A stretch of 64,000 nt of DNA from Adhaeribacter arboris (GTDB lineage: Bacteria; Bacteroidota; Bacteroidia; Cytophagales; Hymenobacteraceae), in contig NZ_PYFT01000001.1 in assembly GCF_003023845.1 (NCBI RefSeq), positions 62,001-126,000 on the forward strand, given 5' to 3'. Below are positions 5,084 to 54,412 of this stretch, piece after piece. Under the pieces are notes generated by a model, which ran no database searches, was not told where the DNA came from, and saw only the letters and a program-made list of their open reading frames with translations. A program made the translations under genes and the position numbers. The stretch's first letter is position 1. Each line of letters starts with the position of its first letter.

Positions 5084-6076
5084 ATGATAAGTTTGGCTAC
5101 TCAGTCTTTCGGAAAAGAAAGTGAGTATAAAAGAGCAATATTAACTATTTTAAGTTTTTATGCGCATTTGCCTAATGACTCAGCTACATCACAGGTAGTT
5201 CTTTTTACAGATTATCCCACTTATTTTGAGTTTTATTTGCAGGGAGTGCCGGTTAAATACGTTACGCTTACCACTGAGAAAATTAAGGTAATGCGCGGAA
5301 CAATAGACTTTTTGCACCGGATGAAAATTGCTTTAATCGAAGAAGCTTTTCACTTAGTTCAAAGTAATTTAATATATGTCGACTCTGACACCTTTTTTAT
5401 TGCGGATCCTACTCCACTGTTAGAGAAATTAAGCCCGGTAAATAGCTTTATGCACCTTAAGGAGTATGAATTTGAGAAGTTATGGAATCAACCATTGCCA
5501 TTTGGGCAAGCGTCGCGGGCTTTTATACAATTGATTGAATCTAAACAATTCTTGTTAGCTGGCGGAAGTAAAATTAGTGTTACCCCAAAGCATTATTCCT
5601 GGAATGCGGGTGTCATGTTTTTCCATGCGACGCACGCCCGATTTATCCCGGATGTATACTCCTTAACGGATCAGTTTTATCTATCTACCCAAAGTCACGC
5701 TAGCGAACAGTACGCCTTTTCTGTGGTTCTGCAGGAAAATACAAAGCTGGAACCATGCAATTCGGTGATTTATCATTATTGGTACCGGGTAAAAAAACAA
5801 ATAATTGACTTGTTTTTAGCGGAACAAATCAATATTAGTTTGGGTGAAAAAGCATTAGGTCAAAAACTGGAACAAGTAAGAGCGTGGTGTACGATGCTTC
5901 CCGGCTATTTTGAAGAAAATATTTTAATGGTGAAAGATAACGCCATACAATCATTTAACGAAAGAAAATATTGGCAAGGATATAAGTATGCTCTTAAAGT
6001 TTTTAGCAAAAAACCTTTCGATTTTGAGTTCTTTAAAGATGTTTTTTATCATACTAAAAAATGGCTAAAGCATTAA
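5084..6076 (+). CDS. Probable glycosyltransferase (GT8-like)
   Basis: 330 residues with no clear GT2 motif. LIYVDSDTFFIADPTPLL near residue 100 has the DxD arrangement typical of GT8-like and related nucleotide-sugar enzymes, and WNAGVMFFH near residue 175 matches the 'N-G-hydrophobic' block often seen after it. The start at 5084 is 5 bp after the previous stop. The 3' end overlaps the next gene by 16 bp, a strong sign of translational coupling. Family assignment is from motif resemblance only. Confidence 0.7.
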   Translation: MISLATQSFGKESEYKRAILTILSFYAHLPNDSATSQVVLFTDYPTYFEFYLQGVPVKYVTLTTEKIKVMRGTIDFLHRMKIALIEEAFHLVQSNLIYVDSDTFFIADPTPLLEKLSPVNSFMHLKEYEFEKLWNQPLPFGQASRAFIQLIESKQFLLAGGSKISVTPKHYSWNAGVMFFHATHARFIPDVYSLTDQFYLSTQSHASEQYAFSVVLQENTKLEPCNSVIYHYWYRVKKQIIDLFLAEQINISLGEKALGQKLEQVRAWCTMLPGYFEENILMVKDNAIQSFNERKYWQGYKYALKVFSKKPFDFEFFKDVFYHTKKWLKH

Positions 6077-49279: not shown

Positions 49280-50059
49280 ATGTTACCTATCCCGTTACCT
49301 ACTTTATTACCCGGACTTCTGCAATTAGCCAAAGAAGCTGGTCGGGCTATTATGCAGGTTTATAATCAGCCAGCCAGTTTTACGCAGGTAACTTTAAAAA
49401 GCGATCAATCACCCTTAACGCAAGCCGACCAAGCCGCCCATGATATAATTGCTGCGGGTTTGGCGGCCCTAACTCCTGGCGTGCCCGTATTATCGGAAGA
49501 GGGTAAATTAGTGCCCTACGAAGAACGCAGAACCTGGGAATTTTACTGGTGCGTTGATCCGCTGGATGGTACCAAAGAATTTATTGGCCGGAATGGAGAA
49601 TTTACGGTCAACATTGCCTTAATAGTCAACAATGTACCAATCGCTGGTATTATTTACGCTCCGGTAACCGACGAACTTTATTACACCGATGGGCAAAATG
49701 GAGCCTACAAACAAGCAGGTACTAAAGCAGAAGAAAAGCTTCAGGTAAGCGGTAAAACAGAAAAATTGGTGGTGGTAAAAAGCCGGTCGCACAGCACTCC
49801 GGAAGAAATTACTTTTTTAGAGCAATTTCCGGTAGCCACCGAAATCCGGATTGGCTCCTCCTTAAAATTCTGTTTAATTGCCGAAGGAAAAGCGCAGCTT
49901 TACTTCCGGCATGGCCCAACCATGGAGTGGGACACGGCCGCCGGACAAGCCATTCTGGCACAAGCGGGCGGTCAGTTAACCAGTCCTACAGGTGAGCCGT
50001 TCCAATATAATAAGCCATCGCTGGTAAATGGCAGTTTTTTGTGTACGAGTTGGCAGTAA
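49280..50059 (+). CDS. cysQ: 3'(2'),5'-bisphosphate nucleotidase
   Basis: 259 residues of the inositol monophosphatase fold. Metal-binding motifs in order: LTQADQAAHD, LSEEG, WCVDPLDGTKEFI and WDTAAGQAILAQAGG. It hydrolyses PAP to AMP and phosphate, removing the inhibitory by-product of PAPS use. It is divergent from cysC across a 244-bp gap and lies upstream of the cysteine operon leader, which has its own promoter. Confidence 0.95.
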   Translation: MLPIPLPTLLPGLLQLAKEAGRAIMQVYNQPASFTQVTLKSDQSPLTQADQAAHDIIAAGLAALTPGVPVLSEEGKLVPYEERRTWEFYWCVDPLDGTKEFIGRNGEFTVNIALIVNNVPIAGIIYAPVTDELYYTDGQNGAYKQAGTKAEEKLQVSGKTEKLVVVKSRSHSTPEEITFLEQFPVATEIRIGSSLKFCLIAEGKAQLYFRHGPTMEWDTAAGQAILAQAGGQLTSPTGEPFQYNKPSLVNGSFLCTSWQ

Positions 50060-50112: not shown

Positions 50113-50143
50113 TTTTGTGCTATGATATAGTTTTTTACCTTTG
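50113..50143 (+). promoter_or_regulatory. Bacteroidota-type promoter of the cysteine operon
   Basis: TTTTG at 50113-50117 and TACCTTTG at 50136-50143, 18 bp apart, match the -33 TTTG / -7 TAnnTTTG consensus of the Bacteroidota primary sigma factor very well. The predicted transcript starts just before the leader ORF at 50161. Confidence 0.8.
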
Positions 50144-50160
50144 CCACAATTAATTAAAAA

Positions 50161-50253
50161 ATGAAAATAAAAAACAACCTTTTTACTGGTATTTATGCCG
50201 CTGCTTGTTGCTGTTGCGCTAGGTTAGTGCCTGCGGAAAGGTTTGCTGTTTAA
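50161..50253 (+). CDS. Cysteine-rich leader peptide 1 (attenuation)
   Basis: 30 codons: ATG, a short basic/hydrophobic start (MKIKNNLF), then AAACCCCAR with four consecutive Cys codons (TGT TGC TGT TGC, 50206-50217), ending FAV-stop. The tip after the Cys run, ggaaaggttt at 50235-50244, duplicates the 3' arm of the terminator at 50299-50308, so it can pair with the 5' arm instead. A ribosome stalled on Cys codons would leave it free (read-through); a ribosome reaching the stop would cover it (termination). The peptide itself probably has no function. Too short for standard gene finders. Confidence 0.85.
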   Translation: MKIKNNLFTGIYAAACCCCARLVPAERFAV

Positions 50254-50280
50254 GGATTAATTAAAATAGCAATAATATTT

Positions 50281-50313
50281 AAAGCCTTTCCGAAACCAGG
50301 AAAGGTTTTTTTT
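50281..50313 (+). terminator. Attenuator 1
   Basis: An 11-bp stem with one G-U pair (aaagcctttcc 50281-50291; ggaaaggtttt 50299-50309), 7-nt loop, and eight T's. The alternative pairing of its 5' arm with 50235-50244 has ten base pairs of almost identical sequence. Confidence 0.88.
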
Positions 50314-50337
50314 GTTTATAGGTAAAAGAATTAAAAA

Positions 50338-50424
50338 ATGAACAAACAACTAATTTTCAATTTTGCGGCGTGTTGCTGTTGCTGTGCTTGCCCCTGGGAA
50401 GGCCTTGATGCGCCTGCGTGTTGA
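50338..50424 (+). CDS. Cysteine-rich leader peptide 2 (attenuation)
   Basis: 28 codons, MNKQLIFNFAA then five consecutive Cys codons (50371-50385), Ala, another Cys, and Cys again as the last residue: seven Cys in all. The segment gggaaggc at 50396-50403, right after the Cys codons, can pair with the 5' arm of the terminator at 50446 (eight pairs with one bulge). Same architecture as leader 1 but different sequence outside the Cys run, which argues for selection on the codons rather than a recent duplication. Confidence 0.85.
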   Translation: MNKQLIFNFAACCCCCACPWEGLDAPAC

Positions 50425-50445
50425 TTTTAGGATACGTATATTATC

Positions 50446-50477
50446 AAGCCTTTCCCGCAACCGGAAAGGCTTTTTTT
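50446..50477 (+). terminator. Attenuator 2
   Basis: A perfect 10-bp stem (aagcctttcc 50446-50455; ggaaaggctt 50463-50472), 7-nt loop and a run of seven T's, 46 bp before cysM. A T-tailed hairpin directly ahead of an operon makes sense only as a conditional terminator. Confidence 0.88.
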
Positions 50478-50523
50478 ATTTCTTTTTACTAAAAATTTAT
50501 TTCAGACTTAAAATTATATAAAT

Positions 50524-51456
50524 ATGCTTCTCACCGCCGAAACGCTTGATTTGCAAGAGCAACTAACTAATTTAAGTTCATTTATCGGCAATACGCCCTT
50601 GTTCCCGATTACCCGCGCCTTTGCCAAACCGGGAGTAAAAATTTACGCCAAACTGGAATGGCAGCAATTAGGCGGCAGCGTAAAGGCTCGGCCGGCTTTC
50701 CGGATTATCCAGGATGCGGTCAAAAGCGGTCGTTTACAACCGGGTCAATCTTTATTAGATGCTTCGAGCGGTAATACGGCCATAGCTTACGCCGCCATTG
50801 GAGCCGCTATTCAAATTCCGGTAACTATCTGCTTACCCGAAAATGCCTCCGACGAACGTAAAACTTTGCTTAAAGCTTTCGGGGCGAATATTGTTTATAC
50901 ATCGCGTTTCGGCTCCACGGACGAAGCTCAGGAAATAGCCAAACAATTGTTCTCGGATTATCCGGATCGTTATTTCTATGCCGACCAATACGGTAACCAA
51001 AGCAACTGGCAAGCCCATTACCATACCACCGCGAACGAAATTTTCCGGCAAACCAAAGGAGAAATTACGCACTTTGTGGCGGGTTTAGGAACTACCGGCA
51101 CTTTTACCGGCACTAGCCGCAAGTTAAAAGAACTTAACCCGGAGATTGAATTAATTTCGTTGCAGCCTGATGCGGCCATGCACGGCCTGGAAGGTTGGAA
51201 ACATTTGGAAACAGCTCGCGTGCCTAAAATTTACGATAGTACTCTGGCTAATCAAAATTTAGCCATCGACACGTACGAAGCATTTGATTTAATTCAAAAA
51301 GTGGCGCAAACCGAAGGTTTGTTAATTAGCCCATCGGCAGCCGCTAATTTAGCGGGGGCCATTAAAGTAGCCGAAAGTATTGACGAAGGAGTAATTGTTA
51401 CGGTTTTCCCGGACAATGCCGAAAAGTACAGCGAAGTGTTGAAATCGCTTTTTTAA
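50524..51456 (+). CDS. cysM: Cysteine synthase, CysM/CysK family
   Basis: 310 residues. PLP Lys in GGSVKARPAFRII near residue 50; SSGNTAIAYA binds the cofactor phosphate; GLGTTGTFTGTSRKL and SPSAAANLAGA follow. The enzyme makes cysteine from an activated serine (O-acetyl- or O-phosphoserine) and a sulfide donor. The downstream JAMM protease, sulfur carrier and E1-like enzyme point to the CysM/CysO/Mec-type route, in which sulfur comes from a protein thiocarboxylate. It is the first gene after the double attenuator. Confidence 0.93.
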   Translation: MLLTAETLDLQEQLTNLSSFIGNTPLFPITRAFAKPGVKIYAKLEWQQLGGSVKARPAFRIIQDAVKSGRLQPGQSLLDASSGNTAIAYAAIGAAIQIPVTICLPENASDERKTLLKAFGANIVYTSRFGSTDEAQEIAKQLFSDYPDRYFYADQYGNQSNWQAHYHTTANEIFRQTKGEITHFVAGLGTTGTFTGTSRKLKELNPEIELISLQPDAAMHGLEGWKHLETARVPKIYDSTLANQNLAIDTYEAFDLIQKVAQTEGLLISPSAAANLAGAIKVAESIDEGVIVTVFPDNAEKYSEVLKSLF

Positions 51457-51534: not shown

Positions 51535-51972
51535 ATGAGATTACAACTAACCGAAGCCGCGCAACGCATTATTCAAGAGCATGCTACCGAAATTTTTCCG
51601 GATGAATGCTGCGGTTTTCTGTACGGCGAGGAAAAGGAAGTGCGACTAATTCAGGAAGCGGTTCCGGTGATTAATAGCAAAGATGGTGATAAGCGTCGCC
51701 GGTTCGAGATATCGCCGGAAGACTACATGCGGGCCGAGAGGTACGCACTGGAAAATAATACCAGCTTATTAGGTGTGTATCATTCGCATCCTAATCATCC
51801 GGCCCGGCCATCTGAGCATGATTTAAAGCAAGCCGTTCCTTTTTTCTCTTACATTATTGTATCGGTTATGGAAGGTAAAATAGCCGATATTACTTCCTGG
51901 CAGTTAAACGAAGCCGACCAGTTTGAAGAAGAAAATATTTTACAACCTGAAAATTATACTAGCAATACCTAA
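51535..51972 (+). CDS. JAMM/MPN metalloprotease (Mec+-like)
   Basis: 145 residues. The zinc site is complete: Glu in the early DECCGFLYG segment, then HSHPNHPARPSEHD, i.e. HxHP-x5-PSxxD. In the known CysO pathway such an enzyme clips cysteine off the carrier's C-terminus; in relatives (QbsD, HcyD) it removes residues after Gly-Gly to activate the carrier. Here the carrier gene follows after 3 bp and ends Gly-Gly-Val, so both roles are possible. Confidence 0.92.
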   Translation: MRLQLTEAAQRIIQEHATEIFPDECCGFLYGEEKEVRLIQEAVPVINSKDGDKRRRFEISPEDYMRAERYALENNTSLLGVYHSHPNHPARPSEHDLKQAVPFFSYIIVSVMEGKIADITSWQLNEADQFEEENILQPENYTSNT

Positions 51973-51975
51973 AAA

Positions 51976-52251
51976 ATGGCAAAAATAATTATTCCTACTC
52001 CGCTCCGGAAATTTACCGGCAACCAGGCTACCATTGAAACCAACGGTTCTACCGTGCTGGAAAGTCTGCAAAGCTTAGCGGAAACCCATCCGGACATAAA
52101 GAAACATTTATTCGATGATAGCGGACAGGTTCGTAAGTTTGTGCGGTTATACTTGGGTGATGAAGACATTAAAGCTCTTCAGAACGAACAAACTACGGTG
52201 CAGGCTAACTCGGTTATCAGCATAATTCCGGCTATTGCGGGTGGAGTTTAG
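51976..52251 (+). CDS. MoaD/ThiS-family sulfur carrier (CysO-like)
   Basis: 91 residues with the beta-grasp fold. IIIPTPLRKFTGNQATIETNG at the start and VRLYLGDEDIKALQ, then VISIIPAIAGGV at the end. The Gly-Gly that would be adenylated and thiocarboxylated is followed by one extra Val, so maturation is expected. It probably carries sulfide as a thiocarboxylate to CysM. Translationally tight (3 bp) with the JAMM gene. Confidence 0.92.
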   Translation: MAKIIIPTPLRKFTGNQATIETNGSTVLESLQSLAETHPDIKKHLFDDSGQVRKFVRLYLGDEDIKALQNEQTTVQANSVISIIPAIAGGV

Positions 52252-52350: not shown

Positions 52351-53493
52351 ATGGTAACTTTCAGTAAACAAGAATTAGAGCGGTACAGCCGCCATTTAAT
52401 TATACCCGAATTTAATATAGAAGGGCAACGTCGCCTCAAAGCTGCCAAAGTATTGGTGGTAGGAACCGGTGGGTTAGGCAGCCCCTTATTGTTGTATTTA
52501 ACCGCCGCCGGTGTGGGCACCATTGGCATCCTAGATTTTGATATTGTCGACGATAGTAATCTGCAGCGCCAGGTATTATTTAGTGTGGCCGATGTAGGCA
52601 AACCTAAAGTAGAAGCGGCGAAAGCTCGTTTAGAAGCCTTAAATCCGCACGTAAATTTTGTGGTGCACAACGAACGCCTCACTTCCGAAAATGCCCTTGA
52701 GATTATCAAAGATTATGATTTAGTAGCTGATGGTACCGATAATTTCCCGACCCGTTATTTAGTGAACGATGCCTGCGTTATTTTAAATAAACCAAATGTT
52801 TATGGCTCCATTTTCCGTTTTGAAGGCCAGGTATCGGTGTTTAACTACACCGATGCCGAAGGTAAAACCGGTCCTAACTACCGCGATTTATTTCCTACCC
52901 CGCCGCCTCCCGGTTTAGTACCAAGCTGCGCCGAAGGTGGCGTATTAGGGGTGCTGCCTGGTATTATTGGTTCATTGCAAGCCAACGAAGTAATCAAAGT
53001 ATTAACGGGAGTAGGGGATCCTTTGTCCGGCCGGTTATTTTTATTTGATGCGGCTACTTTCGAAACCCGGGTACTTAAGGTACACAAAGACCCCAGTAAC
53101 GCACCCATAACCGAGCTGATTGATTATGAGTTTTTCTGCGGCATCGGCGCTGAAGACGAAGAGGATAAAGAAAAAGTAAAAGAGATTACGGTGAGCGATT
53201 TACAAGCCTGGCAAGACAACCATACCGATTTCCAGTTGATAGATGTACGCGAACCTTACGAATACGAAATTGCTAATTTACACGGCGAATTAATTCCACT
53301 GGGCGAAGTAGAAACCGCTATTGATAAAATTGCCTCCGATAAAAATGTGGTGGTGCATTGCCGCTCGGGTGCCCGTAGTGCCAAAGCTATAGCCGCACTC
53401 GAGAAGAAATACGGTTTTAAAAATTTGTACAACTTAAAAGGTGGCATTTTAGCCTGGGCGAACGAAATCGACCCAACCATGGCAAAGTACTAG
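52351..53493 (+). CDS. moeB: MoeB/ThiF E1-like adenylyltransferase with rhodanese domain
   Basis: 380 residues. The adenylation domain (1-245) has VVGTGGLGSPLLLYL, DADIVD-like IDFDIVDDSNLQRQ, and GTDNFPTRYLVNDAC. The zinc-binding Cys pairs of MoeB are largely missing. The C-terminal rhodanese domain (275-375) has the active-site Cys in VHCRSGARSAKAI. It would adenylate the carrier's C-terminal glycine and, through the rhodanese Cys, deliver sulfur to form the thiocarboxylate. Its place after the CysO-like gene supports that role. Confidence 0.93.
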   Translation: MVTFSKQELERYSRHLIIPEFNIEGQRRLKAAKVLVVGTGGLGSPLLLYLTAAGVGTIGILDFDIVDDSNLQRQVLFSVADVGKPKVEAAKARLEALNPHVNFVVHNERLTSENALEIIKDYDLVADGTDNFPTRYLVNDACVILNKPNVYGSIFRFEGQVSVFNYTDAEGKTGPNYRDLFPTPPPPGLVPSCAEGGVLGVLPGIIGSLQANEVIKVLTGVGDPLSGRLFLFDAATFETRVLKVHKDPSNAPITELIDYEFFCGIGAEDEEDKEKVKEITVSDLQAWQDNHTDFQLIDVREPYEYEIANLHGELIPLGEVETAIDKIASDKNVVVHCRSGARSAKAIAALEKKYGFKNLYNLKGGILAWANEIDPTMAKY

Positions 53494-53734
53494 TTAGTCG
53501 ACAGTTCATAGACCATAGTCCACGTTTAATAGACCATAGAAGATACTAATTAATTGGACGATGAACAATGGATGGTTAAATAGGAACTATCGACTAACTA
53601 AATGAAAGTATTAAAAGATAAAACTACGGTCTATGGACTATGGACTGAAAATTAAAACTGTGGTCTTTGGACTATCGTCCGTGGACTATAAACTAAAACC
53701 GTGGTCTATAAACCATGGACTATGGACTAAAACA
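53494..53734. repeat. Large block of tggacta/ccatagtcca words
   Basis: The 241-bp gap between moeB and cysH consists almost wholly of degenerate copies of tggactatgg, gtggtcta and accatagtccac in both orientations, period roughly 7-8 or multiples. Best copies: ctatggactatggactg, gtggtctttggactatc, ccatggactatggacta. It could form many alternative hairpins. It makes the cysH frame appear 34 codons too long. Confidence 0.7.
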
Positions 53735-54412
53735 ATGACTCAATTTGAACAATTAACCGAGGATATCCGGCAGGACTTAGAAGCCTATAAAGCCCGTGGA
53801 TTAAAAATATTTGCTTCTTCGTCGCTGCAAACGAATAGTATGCCGCTGCTGCATATTATTAGCCAAGTCGCCCCCGAAACCCCCGTTTACTTTTTAAATA
53901 CAGGTTACCATTTTCCGGAAACCTTAGCTTTCCGGCAACAAGTTAAAGATTTACTAGGCCTAAATATTACCGATTTATATTCGGCGGTTCCTAAATACCA
54001 GCAACGGGATGCTTCCGGTCGTTTGTTATTTACTTCTGACCCGGATTATTGCTGCTACTTAAATAAAATACAACCTTTAGAGCCCATTTTAGCGAGCCAC
54101 GACGTGTGGATTAGTGGCGTACGGGGCGACCAAAGTAAAGTGCGGGCCCAAATGAAACGCGAAGAAAAAGCGCCCAATGGGGTACTGCGTTACCACCCCA
54201 TGCTCGGCTGGACGAGCAAGATGGTGTACGATTACATTCGCCTGCATAAACTACCGAAACATCCGCTCGAAGGCGAAGGCTACGTGAGCATTGGTTGCGA
54301 ACCTTGCACCCGCAAAATAGACGTAGATGCCTTGCTTGACGACCGCAATGGCCGCTGGTTTGGCATGAATAAAACCGAATGCGGTTTACATACGCAATTA
54401 ATCTCCAAATAA
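53735..54412 (+). CDS. cysH: Adenylylsulfate reductase (4Fe-4S, CysH family)
   Basis: 225 residues from the ATG at 53735 (MTQFEQLTEDIRQ). The frame is open another 34 codons upstream, but these are intergenic repeat words, so that start is rejected. SSLQTNSMPLL is the PP-loop-like region. CCYLNKIQPL and GCEPCTRKI give the CC...CxxC set that binds a 4Fe-4S cluster, so this is the APS-reducing type; ECGLH carries the catalytic Cys. It makes sulfite. The sulfite reductase is not in the window. Confidence 0.94.
   Translation: MTQFEQLTEDIRQDLEAYKARGLKIFASSSLQTNSMPLLHIISQVAPETPVYFLNTGYHFPETLAFRQQVKDLLGLNITDLYSAVPKYQQRDASGRLLFTSDPDYCCYLNKIQPLEPILASHDVWISGVRGDQSKVRAQMKREEKAPNGVLRYHPMLGWTSKMVYDYIRLHKLPKHPLEGEGYVSIGCEPCTRKIDVDALLDDRNGRWFGMNKTECGLHTQLISK

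Follow-up and report, generated by a model that had tools for sequence, protein, structure and literature searches.

Two short open reading frames (ORFs) with runs of Cys codons, each followed by a T-tailed hairpin, lie ahead of a set of cysteine genes in Adhaeribacter arboris. What does this arrangement do for the genes behind it, and why does it occur twice? We examined both questions in the window, the whole stretch of 64,000 nucleotides analysed here, and in the genomes of relatives. The first structural gene (Table 1) encodes a protein whose best NCBIfam match is TIGR01138 (cysM), with a score under the curated cut-off, and whose closest solved chains are cysteine synthase B. We take the JAMM/JAB protein encoded behind it to be Mec-like and the sulfur carrier to be CysO-like, and the gene set as a whole presumably represents the CysM-CysO-Mec route to cysteine together with sulfate reduction. 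A cysQ gene of the inositol-monophosphatase family is located upstream of the leaders and ends at 50059. The genes on the opposite strand of the window, which we assume to be cysN, cysD and cysC, had no Cys leader 5' of them in a scan of that strand.

Table 1. Positions of the leader elements, of the genes behind them and of a second tandem in the same genome
Feature	Position	Strand	Details
Promoter-like site, presumed Bacteroidota type	50114..50143	+	TTTG - 18 nt - TAccTTTG; read from sequence
Promoter boxes	TTTG 50114-50117; TAccTTTG 50136-50143	+	18 nt spacing
Leader ORF1, MKIKNNLFTGIYAAACCCCARLVPAERFAV	50161..50253	+	ATG 50161, 30 codons, stop TAA 50251-50253
Antiterminator segment, unit 1, gcggaaaggtttg	50233..50245	+	Duplex with 5' arm of terminator 1
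Intrinsic terminator 1	50281..50313	+	Stem-loop 50281-50309 and T tract
Leader ORF2, MNKQLIFNFAACCCCCACPWEGLDAPAC	50338..50424	+	ATG 50338, 28 codons, stop TGA 50422-50424
Antiterminator segment, unit 2, gggaaggccttgatgc	50396..50411	+	Pairs with tatcaagcctttccc, small bulges
Intrinsic terminator 2	50446..50477	+	Stem-loop 50446-50472 and T tract
cysM-like PLP-dependent cysteine synthase, first structural gene	50524..51456	+	PF00291
JAMM/JAB metalloprotease	51535..51972	+	PF14464
ThiS/MoaD-like sulfur carrier	51976..52251	+	PF02597
ThiF/MoeB with rhodanese	52351..53493	+	PF00899, PF00581
PAPS-reductase-family protein, cysH-like	53633..54412	+	PF01507
Second tandem, own genome (G000)	C1:4357950; C1:4358133		MNKNASSSANFCKSMACCGICCMAVAGKA; MINTLTSCCCMCCCAAKDGLV; before nitrite/sulfite-reductase-type gene at 4358304
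Second tandem with reductase region	L190:1951-4437 = G000 C1:4357950-4360436		Also L227

The layout proposed in the sequence-only reading, with a promoter-like site, two Cys-run ORFs and two T-tailed hairpins before cysM, proved accurate in each of its positions. We assign the promoter-like site to the Bacteroidota type from what we take to be its consensus; the general sigma-70 promoter scan covers promoters outside this type. ORF1 carries a run of four Cys codons (CCCC, 50206-50217), located both by eye and by script, and ORF2 has five consecutive Cys codons (50371-50385) among seven in the whole ORF. The two terminators are of similar build, with 11 pairs, a loop of 7, -13.7 kcal/mol and a z-score of -3.77 for terminator 1, and 10 pairs, -14.0 kcal/mol and a z-score of -3.93 for terminator 2. 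In unit 1, ggaaaggttt (50235-50244), 17 nt past the Cys run, had been predicted to pair with the 5' arm of terminator 1, and it does so within a slightly larger segment that begins 16 nt past the run, ends 5 nt before the stop codon and forms a duplex of 11 pairs (-17.1 kcal/mol; p 0.005 against the shuffled leader). In unit 2, the predicted pairing of gggaaggc with the 5' arm of terminator 2 was also found, but its extent had been put too short: the match is the longer one given in Table 1. Including flanks, this duplex has 18 pairs (-20.6), and for RNA that starts at +11 past the Cys run, energy minimisation yields the antiterminator. A search for TAnnTTTG detected no second promoter box in the 70 nt 5' of ORF2, no box was seen by eye between terminator 2 and cysM, and a scan revealed no further unit of Cys run and hairpin elsewhere in the 64-kb window. 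A riboswitch or other known RNA was considered and rejected, since an Rfam search at gathering score, which covered the window alone, gave no match anywhere in it.

Both units persist in close relatives. The genus set comprised eight genomes, including that of A. arboris itself (G000). A cysM 95-100% identical to the copy in the window is present in four of the eight, and all four retain both leaders, both terminators and the antiterminator segments; the conservation of Cys runs and alternative pairings on which the sequence-only reading depended was thus borne out. The ORF1 run is CCCC in G004 and CCC in G003 and G007; all three have CCCCC in ORF2 and keep the TAccTTTG box. The other four genomes have no close cysM; three contain one at 38% identity, and G002 has none at threshold. 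G002 contains a single CCCC leader 5' of a ThiF-rhodanese gene, and in G005 and G001 a single leader precedes a rhodanese-domain gene (Pfam on the G005 copy).

A survey of cysM operons in relatives, as the sequence-only reading had proposed, was likewise positive. Genome contigs were scanned with six CysM peptide patterns and the best 80 of 160 relatives were used; titles of the surveyed records include Cytophagales, Saprospiraceae, Chitinophagales, Flavobacteriales and Fodinibius. A unit was scored where an ATG-initiated ORF of at most 70 codons with at least three consecutive Cys codons was accompanied by a T-tailed hairpin of -9 kcal/mol or better. At least one unit was present within 1.5 kb 5' of cysM at 65 of these best 80 loci, with one unit at 47 and two at 18. 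Units with runs of at least four Cys codons numbered 74 on the sense strand and 0 on the antisense strand of 111 kb of upstream DNA, and a single one occurred in the remaining 714 kb, both strands counted. The same detector, applied to sense-strand runs of at least four in the upstream stretches, returned 74 for Cys, 22 for Leu, 4 for Val and 1 for Arg; the Leu and Val runs are probably TGYTGY repeats in other reading frames. TGY runs of at least four stood at 81 sense versus 0 antisense in these stretches, and the Cys codons comprised 318 TGT and 108 TGC. Chance is excluded as the origin of Cys-run leaders with hairpins before cysM.

At 15 of the best 80 loci, the detector found no unit within 1.5 kb upstream of cysM. 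At two of these loci, the DNA 5' of cysM extends to 210 nt at most; in L119 and L124, a unit lies farther out, at about 3 kb. Eleven, several of them from Fodinibius or Flavobacteriales, showed no sense-strand unit even about 3 kb upstream. Two entries kept in the counts are probably not true members, namely the sense-strand unit of L110, in which the run ends one codon before the stop (pairing p 0.15), and the L118 pair, whose units are 678 nt apart. One record titled Gammaproteobacteria (L107) holds a Bacteroidota-like cysM with a Cys leader; this contig is probably misbinned. A covariance model, R1, was rejected as a counter of attenuators: ordinary terminators at gene ends, of the GCCTTTCC type, occur commonly in the surveyed genomes and score up to 50.6 bits, and on reading, R1-scoring terminators at L199, L200, L201, L202, L203 and L204 had no Cys leader. 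Because gene-end terminators score as high, the R1 tallies of 145/150 and 162/296 are not element counts. The model served for candidates alone, and every candidate was checked for a Cys ORF.

If these units are switches, the segment behind the Cys run has to match the terminator it competes with. We analysed 92 units, 83 from the 80 cysM loci and 9 from the genus, and compared the best duplex between the DNA 3' of the Cys run and the terminator 5' arm with that of shuffled leaders. Pairing exceeded shuffles at p<=0.05 in 73 of the 92 units, with 34 at the floor of 0.005; in 19 it did not exceed shuffles at 0.05. The mean pairing energy with a unit's own arm was -17.1 kcal/mol, against -12.3 kcal/mol for swapped partners and -13.1 kcal/mol for the best swap, and pairing was weaker in 100 of 100 swaps (neither shuffle nor swap test corrects for relatedness). 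The partner swap is the main evidence that leader segment and terminator arm evolve together across lineages. Individual units illustrate this with changed pairs such as ggtgagg/cctcgcc (L121), ggaatgg/ccattcc (L094), cggcaggtgg/ccacctgcc (L113) and, in Fodinibius, ggtagtgg/ccactacc (L101).

Covariation of both foldings, put forward in the sequence-only reading as a further check, was strong for one folding and weaker for the other. The alignment had 43 rows drawn from 56 units that passed the pairing test and limits on run length and spacing. The terminator arms covaried strongly, with double-sided changes in 27 cells, a figure that none of 500 shuffles reached. For the antiterminator, such cells numbered 10, likewise unmatched in 500 shuffles; two of five measures were matched by shuffles (78/500 and 17/500), and sliding the partner by +1 raised the number of such cells to 15.

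The position of the antiterminator segment bears on how a ribosome could act on it. Among the 73 pairing units, the median distance from the Cys run to the start of the core helix is 14 nt (quartiles 11-17), and the median from there to the stop codon is 18 nt. Given the size of a ribosome's footprint, this spacing roughly fits a stalled ribosome that would leave the segment bare and a terminating ribosome that would cover it; in 24 of the 73 the helix starts less than 12 nt past the run, near or beneath a ribosome paused at the final Cys codon. In nascent RNA that extends only as far as the terminator loop, 90 of 92 units have half or more of the 5' arm engaged in upstream pairing, compared with 44% of 1840 shuffles, and the terminator forms in 91 of 92 once the antiterminator segment is removed. 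Once the full terminator is present, it persists in the minimum-energy fold of 86 of 92 units even with a bare segment, and unit 1 of the window is among these 86. Since the terminator wins at equilibrium, antitermination would have to be kinetic, taking place during transcription. A protector (1:2) pairing reached a mean z-score of -1.26, with 31 of 92 units at p<=0.05.

Each unit thus combines a run of end-product codons, an intrinsic terminator placed after the leader ORF and ahead of the structural gene, and a competing antiterminator placed where the ribosome decides, which would act kinetically and not at equilibrium. We conclude that the region very probably contains two ribosome-mediated transcription attenuators responsive to Cys-tRNA, arranged one after the other behind a single promoter. 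RNA initiated 5' of ORF1 would have to pass both terminators to reach cysM-JAMM-cysO-moeB-cysH. With plentiful Cys-tRNA, the ribosome would translate past the Cys run as far as the stop, masking the antiterminator segment, so that the terminator folds and transcription ends. With scarce Cys-tRNA, it would wait on the Cys run and leave the downstream segment bare to pair with the emerging 5' arm of the terminator, letting RNA polymerase pass. The ORFs, Cys runs, terminators, complementary segments, spacing, conservation and lineage tracking are read from sequence, and from them we infer that the leaders are translated, that ribosomes stall and transcription terminates, and that cysteine starvation induces the operon. 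The earlier proposal that each unit senses Cys-tRNA draws support from conservation, survey and pairing, with the regulation itself deduced from these.

Why there should be two units is a separate question. A TAnnTTTG box occurs within 70 nt of the first-leader ATG at 23 of 69 loci (shuffled windows, 379/6900; random, 106/3500), and before the second leader in 1 of 21 cases (from 22 tandems, one being too close to a contig end). A promoter of its own for the second leader was rejected, 20 of 21 second units having no such box; a single transcript therefore probably crosses both terminators. As both units must open, output would respond more steeply to Cys-tRNA than with a single unit.

Tandems of the same unit recur in other lineages and in a second operon of the A. 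arboris genome. There, two leaders precede a nitrite/sulfite-reductase-type gene, with what are presumably a siroheme-synthase/TauE-like fusion and a sulfhydrylase-like enzyme encoded next (the first pattern search of this genome scanned 30 of 54 places with TGY runs; L005 and L007 were chance matches on reading). The first reductase leader reads CCMCC, with Met between Cys pairs, in L196-L198 (G006, G001, G005), and so does the leader of L233 (G002).

The tandem could instead be redundant and have no special function, or be a transient duplicate, with one unit doing the regulating. We judge this unlikely. In its favour, there is a single unit at 47 of the best 80 of 160 cysM loci and, among the eight genus genomes, all of which have the reductase gene, at the reductase locus of one (CCMCC in G002); moreover, 18 tandems outside the genus show no first-to-second trend in terminator strength (11:7) or antiterminator strength (9:9). 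Against it, the genus retains both units at four of four orthologous cysM loci and at seven of eight reductase loci, and on the cysM tree (a quick tree without bootstrap) the state changes between tandem and single at least 12 times. The window is the sole tandem among 24 rows of its clade, the others being 21 single and 2 unit-less, which suggests that this tandem arose independently of those in Saprospiraceae. Between the two units there are also differences that point the same way. Of the 18 tandems outside the genus, 14 have the longer Cys run in the second unit, 3 have runs of equal length and 1 has the longer run in the first; the second unit has its stop codon later in 16, a longer distance from run to T tail in 17, and more Cys codons in total in 13 (2 ties, 3 fewer). 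These sign tests ignore relatedness, and the 18 pairs include L118.

A second alternative accepts the switch and changes its signal: the leader could be an arrest peptide that senses free cysteine or another thiol within the ribosome, in place of the slow decoding that comes with scarce Cys-tRNA. The anatomy of ORF, antiterminator and terminator would serve this too, and the sensing of tRNA charging is itself a prediction from sequence. Arrest peptides, however, retain specific residues. By eye, nothing outside the Cys run is common to the leaders across lineages, although ORF2 is well kept within the genus; the run varies from 3 to 8 and the codons past it change along with the terminator. 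An arrest peptide is therefore improbable. More improbable still is a reading in which cysQ simply ends in two terminators, the two hairpins, and the ORFs encode small functional Cys-rich, for example metal-binding, peptides: cysQ does end just upstream, both hairpins come after short Cys-rich ORFs and gene-end terminators abound in these genomes, but the promoter-like site and ORF1 intervene between cysQ and terminator 1, units sit 5' of cysM and other genes at many loci, and the complementary segment tracks the terminator while the peptides vary except for the Cys run.

Units also precede cysK (L161, L164), the reductase gene in other families (L186, L223), rhodanese genes with Met and Cys mixed (L101, L110) and an ABC transporter ATPase gene (L163). 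The targets cysM operon, cysK, nitrite/sulfite reductase, rhodanese and ThiF would fit a role in cysteine supply. Among 17 sulfite-reductase-type loci across the phylum, including that of A. arboris, 6 have a Cys-containing leader under a loose rule (L211 weakly) and 11 have none; the reductase gene is therefore not a universal target.

In Fodinibius, on the minus strand of L101 (unit near 5187-5306), a rhodanese gene divergent from cysM has the leader MRMDMCMCCCM with its own antiterminator and terminator, and the minus strand of L110 is alike; such a mixed leader is a possible double reader of Met and Cys. On the minus strand of L169, tandem Cys leaders (CCCC, then CCCCCC) lie 5' of a peroxiredoxin gene, and the Cys switch may on this account also serve redox defence. 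A leader with CTCC (MNSHNYIDLSCTCCSKSNRGKDSYI), equipped with a terminator and a matching antiterminator, is found in L162 and L206, about 200 nt before a carbonic-anhydrase-family gene.

Ribosome-mediated attenuators control transcription of trp, his and other amino-acid operons. The units described here resemble those of trp and his in their run of end-product codons, alternative antiterminator, intrinsic terminator and location 5' of a biosynthetic operon. They differ in a three-segment layout, with the antiterminator segment mostly within the ORF and no clear 1:2 protector pairing, in having two successive units that serve a single amino acid, and in their host, a member of the Bacteroidota.

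Poly-Cys leader ORFs 5' of cys operons are described in Actinobacteria including mycobacteria in the pertinent passages of PMC1262725, and cysteine-dependent attenuation in mycobacteria is known from Canestrari 2020 as described in PMC9031893 and touched on in part of PMC13236596. These leaders share the Cys-codon run in a short ORF 5' of a cys operon. However, they are leaderless, with the run near the stop and, as far as the relevant sections go, no conserved terminator hairpin (PMC1262725; PMC9031893), whereas each ORF in the window has its own intrinsic terminator and antiterminator, ORF1 begins about 11 nt past the putative start site, and ORF2 is internal. In Rhodobacterales, the uORFC-8-2 motif has a Cys-codon uORF ahead of an intrinsic terminator, and attenuation is predicted (PMC8632094); it has two Cys codons and occurs 5' of cysS only, in alpha-proteobacteria, and the passages concerning it mention no tandem (PMC8632094). 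In Salmonella, the mgtCBR mRNA carries tandem attenuators with two successive leader ORFs (PMC3641672); according to the sections on this system, they answer two signals, ATP and proline, whereas both units of the window read cysteine codons. For the phylum itself, the relevant part of a Flavobacterium transcriptome study gives strong clues of leader-peptide attenuation 5' of amino-acid operons, with cysteine unnamed there (PMC9723704), and that of a Bacteroides transcriptome study reports short ORFs reminiscent of leader peptides (PMC7366714). A term search of the main text of a 2010 attenuator survey gave no mention of Bacteroidetes (PMC2965389). Among the matches listed in open-licence full texts, we found neither a Cys attenuator in Bacteroidota nor two leader-peptide attenuators for the same amino acid in series, and the open-licence literature yielded no account of how cysteine synthesis is regulated in Bacteroidota. 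The novelty of these attenuators is provisional, the coverage being of open-licence main texts.

With the same design preceding sulfur genes in many relatives, the element looks like a widespread cysteine-starvation switch. A codon-based switch in records of Cytophagales, Saprospiraceae, Chitinophagales and Flavobacteriales would explain cysteine regulation in Bacteroidota and would predict its targets, namely the cysM-CysO operon, cysK, sulfite-reductase-type genes and rhodaneses. The broadest form of the proposal is evenly poised in our view: in many Bacteroidota, and perhaps Balneolota to judge from Fodinibius, a family of attenuators built on Cys codons may govern the supply of cysteine, and same-signal tandems may have evolved there repeatedly, with fewer Cys codons in the leading unit than in the following one, to set a threshold in two steps and so sharpen the response to cysteine. 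Two attenuators in series for the same amino acid would provide a clean test of whether stacked terminators sharpen a response, and natural variation in run length gives graded versions for comparison. Attenuation dependent on Cys-tRNA is a well-supported prediction from these sequences, and its interest lies in its breadth in Bacteroidota and in the graded design of the tandem.
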